Assembly (NCBI RefSeq): GCF_900101675.1 | Contig: NZ_FNKG01000001.1 | Coordinates: 558,001 to 622,000 of the forward strand | Length of the DNA stretch: 64,000 nt | DNA from: Curtobacterium sp. UNCCL20 | GTDB lineage: Bacteria > Actinomycetota > Actinomycetes > Actinomycetales > Microbacteriaceae | Reading direction: 5' to 3' | Shown here: positions 15,487-50,216 of the stretch, in pieces | Layout: every line of letters begins with the position of its first letter | Position numbering within the stretch: the stretch's first letter is position 1 | The notes under the pieces: model-generated | What the model saw: the letters and a program-made list of their open reading frames with translations, nothing else | The model's database searches: none | Told to the model about the DNA's origin: nothing | Made by a program: the position numbers and the translations under genes

Positions 15487-15950
15487 ACGGACTCCTTGCG
15501 TTGGAACGGGCGCGGGACGAGCCCGCTCCGGTAGTTCTACCCCTGGCGACCGACATCGCCGAGTCGCTGGGCCAAGGTACGGGGACAGAGTTATCCCCAG
15601 CAAACGGCCCTGTGGATAACTCTGTGGAGAGTCTGCGGAACACGCCGGGATGCTGTGTGGACAACTGTGGATGGGGGTGTGGACAAGTCGCATGGGGAAC
15701 ACACTTTCGACCGCTTGACCTGGGGTTTCCTGTTTCACACCATGTGTGGAGAAGTGGGGTTCAAGTACGCCTTGAAGGTTCCGATTTGACACGTTTCCCC
15801 TGTGTAAAAAGAGTTGACAAACGCGAACCTGAGGACAACTTTCCCAAGCGGCTCCCAGCAAGCGGCGACCCCTTCTGGAACGTAACCACTCAGCCCAGCG
15901 CACCACGCGCCTCCAGGCCGGGAGATGTGCCGGACACCTGCAGAACGCGA
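15487..15950. promoter_or_regulatory. dnaB upstream region with a DnaA-box cluster
   Basis: This gene-free interval holds three exact DnaA-box 9-mers in the TGTGGAYAA orientation: 15611-15619, 15656-15664 and 15678-15686. Near matches are TTATCCCCA at 15591-15599, TGTGGAGAG at 15623-15631, TGTGGATGG at 15666-15674 and TGTGGAGAA at 15745-15753. All lie upstream of dnaB. DnaA binding here could coordinate helicase expression with initiation. A dispersed palindromic repeat copy is at 15907-15920. Confidence 0.6.
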
Positions 15951-35075: not shown

Positions 35076-35611
35076 GATGATCTCCACACGGCTGCACTGG
35101 GCGAGGAGCTCAGCGCGGGCCGTCACGTATGTGTCGTCGCTCGGTGCCGAGCGACCAGATGGGCGCGACCGAATGGCCGCAGTCAACTGGTTAACGGTAC
35201 GTGACAGCAGCGGGCAGGTCAAACGCGGCGCCCGGACACCGCTCCGGGGTGCCCGCGCACGATCATTATCCACACTGGGGAAAACGTGCGTTCGGTGTGA
35301 CGCGCCGCGGTCCTTTACAGTGGGGTGATCGATCCGCCTGCGGCCCGGCAACACGGGGGAGTCACCCCGAACTGGACCACGCGGCGGTCGTGGACAAGAC
35401 TGTGGACAACCCTGTGGACCACCACGCGGGACGACACGGGTTCGGGCCGTCGAAGGAGCCACCCGAGCACTGACGATCCGCCGGCACGATCCGGGGGTCG
35501 AACGCTGTCCAGGGGCGGTCGCCGAACACGGCGAGCCGGACGGGACAGCAGCGACGGACGCGGACGACCCCGCGGCGACGAACACGAACGAGACCAGGAG
35601 ACGAGCGCGAC
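35076..35611. promoter_or_regulatory. rpmH-dnaA intergenic region with DnaA boxes
   Basis: A gap of 536 bp. Exact DnaA boxes are TTATCCACA (35266-35274) and TGTGGACAA (35401-35409). CGTGGACAA (35390-35398) and TGTGGACCA (about 35412) are near matches. They suit autoregulation of dnaA or the upstream half of a split origin. No small gene is evident. Confidence 0.65.
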
Positions 35612-37078: not shown

Positions 37079-37573
37079 TTGCGGACGCACCGCGCCGATG
37101 GACCGCGACGCGTCGCGTCACGACGTGGTCGGCCGATCCGGCCTGGAGGCACGACTGACGACGGTCGGATCGGCCCACTTCCGCGCGCATCCACCATCTG
37201 AGACGGTTCCATGCGCCGGACTTCTCACAGTGTGGAAAGCCTGTGGATAACTGTGGAGGACACGCCGCCCGGTTGTTCACAGCTGGAGGGGTCCCTGTGG
37301 AGACTGGGGATGGAAGTGGATAGATGAGATTCATTCATCCAGAGGCCGCTCACACACCGCCAACAAGTCACACGGTTGTAGTTCCCAGTCGCCGAGCGGT
37401 GTTAACAGGGTTATCCACAGTGTGCACAGGCGTTAACACCATTACTCCTGGTTAACGATGGATCTCAGGGGGCCAACCTTGTGGACGGCGGGATGACAAG
37501 AAATCCGGCCTCCGCTGCGCTGTGCCACAATGGGGCGGCCGGACAAGCCAACCGATCGACAGGGGTTCCAGCT
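37079..37573. promoter_or_regulatory. oriC: Replication origin oriC (dnaA-dnaN intergenic)
   Basis: A gap of 495 bp between dnaA and dnaN. Exact DnaA boxes are TGTGGATAA (37242-37250) and TTATCCACA (37411-37419). Weaker ones are TGTGGAAAG (37231), TGTGGAGGA (37252), TTGTTCACA (37273) and TGTGGAGAC (37296). An AT-richer stretch (37318-37345) and three GTTAAC hexamers (37401, 37432, 37451) around the last box are candidates for the unwinding element. Gene polarity diverges around here. A dispersed repeat copy is at 37141. Confidence 0.88.
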
Positions 37574-48736: not shown

Positions 48737-49606
48737 GTGAGCGATCCGGCGTACACCTCGACCAACACCTGCTACCGGCATCCCGATCGGCAGAGCTTCG
48801 TGCTCTGCCAGCGGTGCGGGCGGACCATCTGCCCGGAGTGCCAGACGCCGGCGGCCGTCGGGGTGCACTGCCCGGAGTGCGTGCGTGAGCAGCGTGCACA
48901 GTTCCAGGCGAACCGTCGGGCGACCGGGCCGAGTGGCTTCACGGTCGCCCGGCGGAGGTTCGCCATGCTCGACCAGAAGGCGACGGTCGTCATCGTCGGC
49001 ATCTCGGTCGTGCTGTGGTTGCTCAACCAGGTCACCGGCGGCTACGTCAACCTCTGGCTGAGCTACTACACCCCACTCGTCGGCACCCAACCGTGGCGAC
49101 TCGTCACCGGGTTGTTCGTGCACTCGTCGTTCCTCCACATCCTGTTCAACATGTGGGCGGTGTGGATCTTCGGACGGATGCTCGAGAACATCCTCGGGAC
49201 GTGGCGGTTCGTCGCGCTCTACTTCCTGGCCGGTCTGGGCGGTGACCTCGCGGTGTCGTGGTTGAGCCCGGGCACGCAGGTGGTCGGCGCCTCGGGTGCG
49301 ATCTTCGGTCTGTTCGCGGCGTTCTTCGTGATCCAGCGGAGCCTCGGCTACAACGCCGTGCAGCTCCTCGTGATCATGGGCCTCAACCTCGTCGTCGGGT
49401 TCCTGCCGGGAACGAACATCTCCTGGCAGGCGCACGTCGGTGGCATCGTCCTCGGGTTCATCACCGGGTTCGTGTTCTCGAAGACGCGCAACGTCCGGCA
49501 GCGGGGGCTCCAGATCGGGCTGCTCGTCGCTGAGGCCGTAGTCCTCGTCGCGGGGATCTTCGCCGCCTTCGTCCACATCGGGGGACTCACCGTCTACGGC
49601 CTCTGA
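48737..49606 (+). CDS. Rhomboid-family intramembrane serine protease with an N-terminal zinc-binding domain
   Basis: A protein of 289 aa. The N-terminus holds a B-box-like set of Cys/His (CYRHPDRQSFVLCQRCGRTICPECQ, then CPECV) that should bind zinc. A six-helix rhomboid core follows, with HSSFLHILFNMWAVWIFGRMLE, the nucleophile in GASGAIFGLFAAFF and the partner His in WQAHVGGIVLGFITG. It cleaves within membranes; the substrate is unknown. The start is GTG 48737. The ppiA-rhomboid pairing near oriC is common in actinobacteria. Confidence 0.93.
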   Translation: MSDPAYTSTNTCYRHPDRQSFVLCQRCGRTICPECQTPAAVGVHCPECVREQRAQFQANRRATGPSGFTVARRRFAMLDQKATVVIVGISVVLWLLNQVTGGYVNLWLSYYTPLVGTQPWRLVTGLFVHSSFLHILFNMWAVWIFGRMLENILGTWRFVALYFLAGLGGDLAVSWLSPGTQVVGASGAIFGLFAAFFVIQRSLGYNAVQLLVIMGLNLVVGFLPGTNISWQAHVGGIVLGFITGFVFSKTRNVRQRGLQIGLLVAEAVVLVAGIFAAFVHIGGLTVYGL

Positions 49607-49625
49607 GTCACAGCACCAGTTCCTC

Positions 49626-49659
49626 GAACGCCCCGTCGCACACGTGATGGGGCGTTCGT
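49626..49659 (+). terminator. Terminator after the rhomboid gene
   Basis: CGAACGCCCC (49626-49635) and GGGGCGTTCG (49650-49659), 10-bp arms with a 14-nt loop, 20 nt past the stop. Confidence 0.75.
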
Positions 49660-49711
49660 CGTTCACCGCGTCGGGAACCGCGTTGTGCTTTTCCACGCGT
49701 GCACGAGCGAG

Positions 49712-49892
49712 TTATCCACAGGTGTGGACAAAACGGTGAGTTACACGCGTGTGATTATCCCCACTGTGGACGAAGCTGTGGATAAGTCCCGGACACGGGT
49801 GTGGATGAGTGTGTGGAGAGTGTGGACAACTGTGGACAACAGGCAGGAAACAGCCGCAGACGACTCGTGCCCGCCACTTCCCTTGTGGACAA
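49712..49892. promoter_or_regulatory. Dense DnaA-box array
   Basis: Exact TT[A/G]TCCACA matches or complements lie at 49712-49720, 49723-49731, 49777-49785, 49821-49829, 49831-49839 and 49884-49892. One- or two-base variants are at 49755-49763 (TTATCCCCA), 49765-49773 (TGTGGACGA), 49800-49808 (TGTGGATGA) and 49812-49820 (TGTGGAGAG). Many neighbours start 9-12 bp apart, so they face one side of the helix, and most share one orientation. The array lies about 12 kb from oriC with no gene inside. It could titrate or reactivate DnaA, as datA and DARS do in E. coli. Confidence 0.75.
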
Positions 49893-49905
49893 CTGAGGAA
49901 AACGA

Positions 49906-49941
49906 CGACGCCCGCCGCACCAGGAGGTGCGACGGGCGTCG
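49906..49941 (-). terminator. Terminator after crgA
   Basis: CGACGCCCGCCGCAC (49906-49920) pairs with GTGCGACGGGCGTCG (49927-49941) over 15 positions with one mismatch. It sits 20 nt past the crgA stop on the minus strand. Confidence 0.78.
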
Positions 49942-49961
49942 AGGAGCAGCTGACCGGTGGA

Positions 49962-50216
49962 CTAGCGCCAGCGGGTGGTCATGAGGAAGCCGACGAACAT
50001 GATGCCGAAGCCGATCAGGATGTTCCACGACCCGAGCGACGGAACCGGCAGGGTCGTGTTCGAGATGTAGAAGACGATCACCCAGGCGAGCCCGATGAGC
50101 ATGAAGCCGAACATGACCGGCTTGAACCAGACGGGGTTCGGCTGGTCCCCCGCGGTGTCGACCGAGTCGGCTCGGGTCCTCCGGGCGGGCTTGGTGCGGT
50201 CCTTGTCCTTGGCCAT
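49962..50216 (-). CDS. crgA: Cell division protein CrgA
   Basis: A protein of 84 aa. A Lys/Arg-rich cytosolic N-terminus is followed by NPVWFKPVMFGFMLIGLAWVIVFYI, then LPVPSLGSWNILIGFGIMFVGFLMTTRW, the two transmembrane helices of CrgA. It coordinates FtsZ-ring peptidoglycan synthesis in actinobacteria. It is divergent from pabA and beside the DnaA-box array. Confidence 0.95.
   Translation of the reverse strand: MAKDKDRTKPARRTRADSVDTAGDQPNPVWFKPVMFGFMLIGLAWVIVFYISNTTLPVPSLGSWNILIGFGIMFVGFLMTTRWR

Follow-up and report, generated by a model that had tools for sequence, protein, structure and literature searches.

A DnaA-box array 3' of crgA in Curtobacterium contains a three-box module conserved across the class Actinomycetes

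The intergenic region 3' of crgA in Curtobacterium sp. UNCCL20 carries an array of DnaA boxes, the core of which is a module of three boxes abutted by a palindrome. We observe this unit at the same position and with the same geometry in related genomes, conserved and in near-single copy. The array is probably, with odds slightly better than even (about 0.54), a local form of a conserved origin-proximal locus of DnaA control at the 3' flank of crgA; judged from sequence comparison, it would most likely be activating and DARS-like, and the tandem boxes of the genus would add titration capacity. Taken by itself, the reading as a control locus is held with high confidence; the DARS-like direction, which is argued by analogy, would be given less than even odds.

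The array and the other box clusters of the window

The window is the whole stretch of 64,000 nucleotides that was analysed, and all positions refer to it unless a genome coordinate is given (Table 1). The 181-bp span 49712–49892 contains six exact matches to the DnaA-box pattern TTRTCCACA, three boxes that deviate from it at one position, and one that deviates at two, which confirms the six exact and at least four near boxes in about 180 bp reported in an earlier note on this DNA. Eight of the ten boxes are on the minus strand, in agreement with the mostly single orientation described there. The boxes are organized into three sub-clusters (49712/49723, 49755/49765/49777, and 49800/49812/49821/49831), within each of which the box starts are 9–12 bp apart. 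The helical spacing that the note had described holds inside the sub-clusters and is lost between them, where the distances are 23–32 bp; the box at 49884 is 53 bp from its nearest neighbour. As was also noted before, the array occupies a gene-free gap, 355 bp long (49607–49961), on which the rhomboid gene and crgA converge. The G+C-rich hairpin at 49626–49657 is perhaps a terminator and is absent from the output of the terminator scan.

Table 1. Features of the window, with positions counted from its first nucleotide
Feature	Positions	Strand	Remarks
Box cluster upstream of dnaB	15591–15838		three exact, three near boxes
Box cluster upstream of dnaA	35266–35421		two exact, two near boxes; three in tandem 12 bp apart
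dnaA–dnaN gap, presumptive oriC	37242–37419		two exact boxes, one near
Rhomboid gene	48737–49606	+	PF01694, E 2.2e-35
G+C-rich hairpin 3' of rhomboid gene (GAACGCCCC...GGGGCGTTC)	49626–49657		retained in most congener rows shown
Exact DnaA box TTATCCACA	49712–49720	+	convergent with 49723
Exact DnaA box TTGTCCACA	49723–49731	-	
Palindrome TTACACGCGTGTGA (consensus TTACACnnGTGTAA)	49741–49754		abuts box I
DnaA box I TTATCCCCA	49755–49763	+	one mismatch, degenerate; all nine positions identical in 30/30 congeners
DnaA box II TCGTCCACA	49765–49773	-	one mismatch; head-to-head with box I, start +10
DnaA box III TTATCCACA	49777–49785	-	exact; tandem with box II, start +12
Near DnaA box TCATCCACA	49800–49808	-	one mismatch; heads run of four tandem boxes
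Near DnaA box CTCTCCACA	49812–49820	-	two mismatches; TGTGGA core largely retained in congeners
Exact DnaA box TTGTCCACA	49821–49829	-	tandem run
Exact DnaA box TTGTCCACA	49831–49839	-	tandem run
Exact DnaA box TTGTCCACA	49884–49892	-	distal
Terminator hairpin, 16 pairs, 3' of crgA	49906–49941	-	bounds array; from terminator scan; present in congener rows shown
crgA	49962–50216	-	PF06781 match at G000:C6:607965-608210; 3' end faces array

The window contains 13 exact boxes, compared with 0.15 expected from shuffles. The 3.85-Mb genome contains 31 exact boxes, against 14 for a reversed-pattern control, and six of the 31 belong to the array; no other group of exact boxes in the genome is as dense. 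The sequence TTATCCACA occurs six times in the whole 3.85-Mb genome, every time inside the window. Groups of at least two exact boxes within 1 kb, counted over the whole genome from exact boxes only, are four in number and confined to the window; outside it, exact boxes on one contig are never closer to each other than about 39 kb. When up to one mismatch is allowed, the genome-wide count is 310 and that of the reversed pattern 316; boxes are then at background level, and their excess is therefore local. A small group of near boxes together with one exact box was seen far from the window (G000:C4:30919-32375).

The cluster at 35266–35421 is likely to serve the autoregulation of dnaA. The dnaA–dnaN gap had been described as holding only two exact boxes, which is correct, and the near box listed in Table 1 is additional to these. 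Upstream of dnaB, at least two boxes (up to one mismatch) are present within 600 bp in eight of ten class-level fragments; the count is based on 20 rplI–dnaB fragments, from which the 10 without a dnaB match were left out.

Conservation of boxes, module, and palindrome 3' of crgA

The flank of crgA was compared in 100 loci, one per genome, sampled at the level of genus (10 congeners), family (40), order (10), and class (40, Actinomycetes). In the relatives, crgA was located by PF06781, and the window itself is outside the 100-locus counts. The sampled genomes are kin, and the locus counts do not equal independent events. In the 500 bp 3' of crgA, 71 loci have an exact box; the number rises to 91 when one mismatch is tolerated. 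The density of exact boxes is 2.10 per kb in the 500-bp flank versus 0.081 in the remainder of the loci. By comparison, exact matches in 0–1 loci were obtained for each of six control 9-mers, namely the reversed pattern, four permutations, and one of other make-up. At up to one mismatch, the controls match 1–23 of the 100 loci in the same 500-bp bin, the reversed 9-mer reaching the highest value of 23, so base composition explains part of the 91. Exact boxes and boxes with up to one mismatch are found, respectively, in 10 and 10 of the 10 loci of the genus, 31 and 37 of the 40 of the family, 4 and 7 of the 10 of the order, and 26 and 37 of the 40 of the class. Each of the 10 congeners has seven or more boxes with up to one mismatch, and the number of exact boxes at the crgA flank outside the genus is 0–3 per locus. 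In nine of the 100 loci, the 500 bp 3' of crgA lack any box with up to one mismatch, and in four class genomes with crgA (L064, L107, L110, and L128) there is none within 800 bp. Thus, the array is not peculiar to this genome, and related groups of boxes occupy the same place in most genomes examined. The lack of conservation in relatives that the earlier note had set against its own proposal is not what was found, as boxes at crgA are conserved class-wide.

The distance from crgA to dnaA is about 12 kb here and 13–129 kb in those 27 of 30 genomes that have both genes on one contig. Boxes are retained in G265 and G038 despite distances of 94 and 57 kb, respectively; the crgA flanks of G219 (129 kb from dnaA) and G263 (85 kb) carry none. 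Within the genus, the box positions form a footprint: when the window is compared with 30 congeners (31 sequences in all), identity to it reaches 0.852 inside the boxes and 0.522 between them, calculated with one of the ten boxes masked from 49811, where its true start is 49812. Of the 195 register shifts, two attain 0.852, and one of these two is the unshifted register.

The unit conserved across the class is a module in which box I opposes boxes II and III, with starts 10–11 bp apart between I and II and 12–13 bp apart between II and III. This triplet, I(+) 10/11 II(-) 12/13 III(-), is present in either direction in 65 of the 100 loci (9/10 of the genus, 23/40 of the family, 5/10 of the order, and 28/40 of the class); 35 loci lack it at the cut-offs used. 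None was obtained from dinucleotide shuffles of the loci in 40 rounds. The spacing is sharply restricted, with 28 loci in cell (10,12), 19 in (10,13), and 18 in (11,12), and 0–4 in every other cell tried. Accordingly, convergent pairs of boxes peak at 10/11 and 22/23 bp and same-strand pairs at 12/13 bp, and divergent pairs are few at those distances. The module occurs both ways round relative to crgA (31 F, 36 R). It is kept in some loci in which the rhomboid gene is not adjacent (L094, L104, L115, L117, L124, and L126). Where the rhomboid gene and crgA are further apart (L037, L068, and L112), the triplet is located 1.6–1.9 kb from crgA, between both genes. The other 1854 kb of the 20-kb loci contain 18 additional triplets, of which four are displaced, 13 are positioned 9–16 kb towards dnaA, and one is elsewhere.

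The module is close to single copy. A search of 88 whole genomes for its (10,12) form gave a single match, which is the one in this genome; the class loci in that comparison are mostly of the (10,13) or (11,12) form. The (10,13) form, searched with up to three mismatches, is found in 28 of the 88 genomes with one match each, 27 of them 20–206 bp 3' of crgA, and the reversed pattern gives no match. The (10,13) form is also that of S. scabiei; at crgA in family f21 (n=4), the spacing is (12,12) in two loci and (11,12) in one, and one locus has no triplet. A strict triplet pattern run over genomes of 84,980 species gave at least 120 stretches. Among the 80 of these that were listed, 56 lie 0–500 bp 3' of crgA; six lie 127–415 bp 3' of a rhomboid gene, crgA being either undetected or beyond the ends of the locus; seven have crgA 719–5074 bp away; and 11 have neither gene adjacent, eight of the latter coming from Propionibacteriaceae or other actinobacterial MAGs. 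The titles of the listed stretches are actinobacterial in all but three. One of these three, a contig titled as a Spirochaetaceae MAG (L229), carries crgA and the module, and is probably a misbinned actinobacterial contig. The earlier note had drawn attention to box density; the long tandem array is instead an elaboration of this genus, and the class-wide unit is the three-box module with the palindrome.

With up to one mismatch allowed, 43 of the 100 loci have the palindrome TTACACnnGTGTAA in the 500 bp 3' of crgA (44 matches in 50 kb), compared with four matches in the 1854 kb of the rest of the loci; four control palindromes have none in the 500-bp flanks at the same threshold. At two mismatches, TTACACnnGTGTAA is present in 64 loci versus 0–2 for control palindromes. 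It is tied to the module: 61 of the 65 modules have it within 60 bp of an outer box (up to three mismatches), mostly with a gap of 0–1 bp, against 0–2 of 65 for three control palindromes.

The palindrome also occurs away from crgA. The sequence TTACACNNGTGTRA is present in 46 of 80 whole family genomes, and among 30 loci from those 46 genomes the neighbourhood is crgA in 13, the upstream region of a WhiB2-like gene in seven, the upstream region of an nrdH-like gene in three, and a LacI-family gene in one; six are without assignment. The names WhiB2, NrdH, NrdI, and NrdR box are our own assignments, presumed from sequence and recall. In L177, L185, L189, L190, L192, L198, and L200 (near 1501), the palindrome is upstream of the WhiB2-like gene, and six of these seven loci have no DnaA box within 400 bp. 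In L175, L183, and L195 (near 1501), the palindrome and an abutting DnaA box (TTVTCCACA) are upstream of the nrdH-like gene, and in L183 this site adjoins an NrdR-like box. A second palindrome in the Curtobacterium genome itself (G000:C6:467251) was set aside as unrelated; it is longer and perfect, and is positioned beside a LacI-family gene. The best matches listed in a search of the open literature contained nothing relevant to the palindrome.

Relation to known DnaA-binding loci

In 2006, Smulczyk-Krawczyszyn reportedly described the DnaA-box clusters H69, H24, and D78 near oriC of S. coelicolor, of which D78 is said to hold DnaA; on our assumption, H69 may be the crgA cosmid. The array resembles these clusters in that its boxes are near oriC. 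For M. tuberculosis, we take Rv0011c to be crgA. DnaA of M. tuberculosis binds five regions in IDAP-seq, and the homologous regions are bound by M. smegmatis DnaA in ChIP-seq (PMC7738170, Hicks et al. 2020). The five are oriC, Rv0010c–Rv0011c, the region upstream of dnaB, rpmH–dnaA, and Rv3843c–RVnc0040; Rv0010c–Rv0011c, which the study lists apart from oriC, is also bound in EMSA (PMC7738170). A further paper likewise names Rv0010c and DnaA (PMC9579286). The binding of DnaA at the crgA flank is already known in mycobacteria.

Clusters of the window match four of the five mycobacterial regions, since besides the crgA flank, the oriC, rpmH–dnaA, and dnaB-upstream regions carry clusters here too. 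The mycobacterial site occupies the same 3' flank of crgA and has clustered boxes that include a palindromic pair; it differs in its far-side gene, which is Rv0010c rather than the rhomboid gene. Three named mycobacterial loci (L232, L269, and L281) contain TTATCCCCACTGTGG and box III, and a palindrome-like stretch ends beside TTATCCCCACTGTGG, much as in the window. Their box I is identical to that of the window, and the module is positioned 75–101 bp 3' of crgA, but it is inverted relative to crgA and has the spacing (10,13) instead of (10,12); the tandem boxes are an addition of the genus of the window. The one (10,13) match that is not at crgA (G265:C1:8694488-8694519) is located on the other side of dnaA, at a distance of about 121 kb, and could correspond to the fifth mycobacterial region. 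The three-box geometry, the TTACAC palindrome, and conservation beyond mycobacteria are not described in the portions of PMC7738170 available to us. The best matches listed from the open literature include no title or abstract on class-wide conservation, the three-box geometry, or an actinobacterial DARS.

The DARS elements are DnaA-reactivating sequences, which promote the release of ADP from DnaA. In them, box I opposes boxes II and III, and the spacing is the same in DARS1 and DARS2 (PMC5742627; PMC10380432 is a further source). The cores of both elements in E. coli MG1655 read +14-12-, with the boxes picked from the sequence under the guidance of that description. The module resembles them in having three boxes, with I opposed to II and III, I and II head-to-head, and a degenerate box I, and in being intergenic; the distance between the starts of II and III is similar as well, at 12 bp here and 12–13 bp across the class. 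In contrast, the starts of I and II are 10 bp apart here and 10–11 bp across the class, versus 14 bp in both DARS cores, and the cell (14,12) is empty in all 100 loci. Whereas the DARS elements are located between oriC and terC, this site is near oriC, 12 kb from dnaA–dnaN and 13–129 kb where measured elsewhere, and the second element described at its boxes is the palindrome, where DARS has known IHF and Fis sites. The locus would therefore be DARS-like, not a DARS, and a DARS-type mode of working can be suggested by analogy at most.

Possible roles of the locus

Rigidly placed boxes and a palindrome, usually in one copy, lying between the ends of genes and pointing either way relative to crgA, speak for a DnaA nucleoprotein structure rather than a promoter or a mere sink. 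We infer the biochemical direction and a partner protein of the palindrome. The partner would bind the palindrome, abutting the three boxes. As in the E. coli DARS, DnaA on boxes I and II would meet head-to-head, with box III in support. The fixed DnaA complex may then change the activity or availability of DnaA, most likely in an activating, DARS-like direction, and the tandem run at 49800–49839 beside the core would add DnaA-holding capacity by titration in this genus.

Titration has been proposed for high-affinity box clusters of Streptomyces and for B. subtilis. As the whole function of the array, it would mean that dense high-affinity boxes near oriC, doubled early, soak up free DnaA and hold back re-initiation. 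The array is origin-proximal, 12 kb from dnaA–dnaN, and it is the densest exact-box group of the genome; all ten congeners keep seven or more boxes, and the box positions are conserved. However, titration needs number and affinity rather than fixed geometry, and the spacing and the palindrome register are rigid. Furthermore, the few exact boxes per locus outside the genus are too few to hold much DnaA, and box I (TTATCCCCA) is conserved yet degenerate, not a strong box. We therefore regard titration as the sole function as unlikely, if a serious candidate. DnaA is a transcription factor elsewhere, and bound DnaA could regulate crgA, the rhomboid gene, or mycobacterial Rv0010c, and couple division to replication; the division gene crgA adjoins the site in most loci sampled, and one weak sigma-70-like match (9/12) overlaps the module at 49754–49782 on the minus strand. 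Nevertheless, the site is at gene 3' ends between hairpins, and the gene on its other side varies. The convergent gene ends, the two orientations of the module relative to crgA, and the rhomboid gene that is not always adjacent make the array independent of transcription. The expression of Rv0010c and Rv0011c is unaltered in M. tuberculosis dnaA mutants (PMC7738170). Transcriptional control is thus very improbable.

In a datA-like locus, DnaA-ATP would assemble on the tandem boxes, and a DNA-bending protein at the palindrome would help to trigger hydrolysis of the bound nucleotide. E. coli datA, which stimulates the hydrolysis of ATP bound to DnaA, is likewise a non-origin DnaA cluster near oriC, and its accessory-protein site, an IHF site, may have a counterpart in the palindrome, a second conserved element beside the boxes. 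The tandem run at 49800–49839, with four boxes, shares one direction, as do the essential datA boxes (PMC5742627). In the class-wide core, box I nevertheless faces II and III, and the M. tuberculosis site mutants have longer cells like the dnaA variants, which the authors compare to hypomorphic rather than hyperactive alleles (PMC7738170); a datA-like role is improbable. An auxiliary or true origin element is the least credible role. It would fit the box density and the lowest-GC 50-bp window of 0.46, which equals the value of the dnaA–dnaN gap. In addition, cumulative GC skew over 460 kb has its deepest two-sided local dip (sides of 765 and 691) close to the array, with the lowest point at about 51.2 kb and hence 1.3 kb beyond it, and dnaA–dnaN is not a minimum. 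However, the same 460 kb contain five shallower two-sided dips (smaller side 242–425 versus 691) and no overall turning point or V shape, so the dip near the array may reflect local gene content. Moreover, crgA is up to 94 kb from dnaA in box-carrying genomes (G265), and the mycobacterial study lists the site separately from oriC (PMC7738170). The earlier note had suggested a titration or reactivation locus or an auxiliary origin element. A non-origin regulatory locus that binds DnaA is upheld by the class-wide conservation and by the binding of mycobacterial DnaA to the same gap in vitro and in vivo (PMC7738170); the auxiliary origin is weak.

The activating, DARS-like reading of the control locus draws on the mycobacterial mutants. 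Three point mutants at Rv0010c–Rv0011c have longer cells, like the dnaA variants, and the authors liken these variants to hypomorphs (PMC7738170), which leans towards an activating role. The initiation rate of M. tuberculosis dnaA mutants is not different in the same source, which weakens any claim on initiation timing. Together, the geometry and the published mutant phenotype make us lean towards a DARS-like role over titration.

It is also possible, although doubtful on the sequence comparisons made here, that the loci represent an actinomycete class of DnaA-recharging or remodelling element: a near-single-copy module at crgA, tighter than DARS, and worked by a putative palindrome-binding protein. 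If so, the presence of the same palindrome at whiB2-like and nrdH-like genes of the family suggests that the partner may tie initiation to division and nucleotide supply. The control of DnaA between replication rounds in actinobacteria is poorly understood, and the mycobacterial copy of the locus has a phenotype without a mechanism. The conserved geometry and the paired palindrome provide a testable hypothesis for the mycobacterial site, which gains an evolutionary frame spanning the class. Overall, the comparison is suggestive of an ancient switch in the control of DNA replication that has received little attention.
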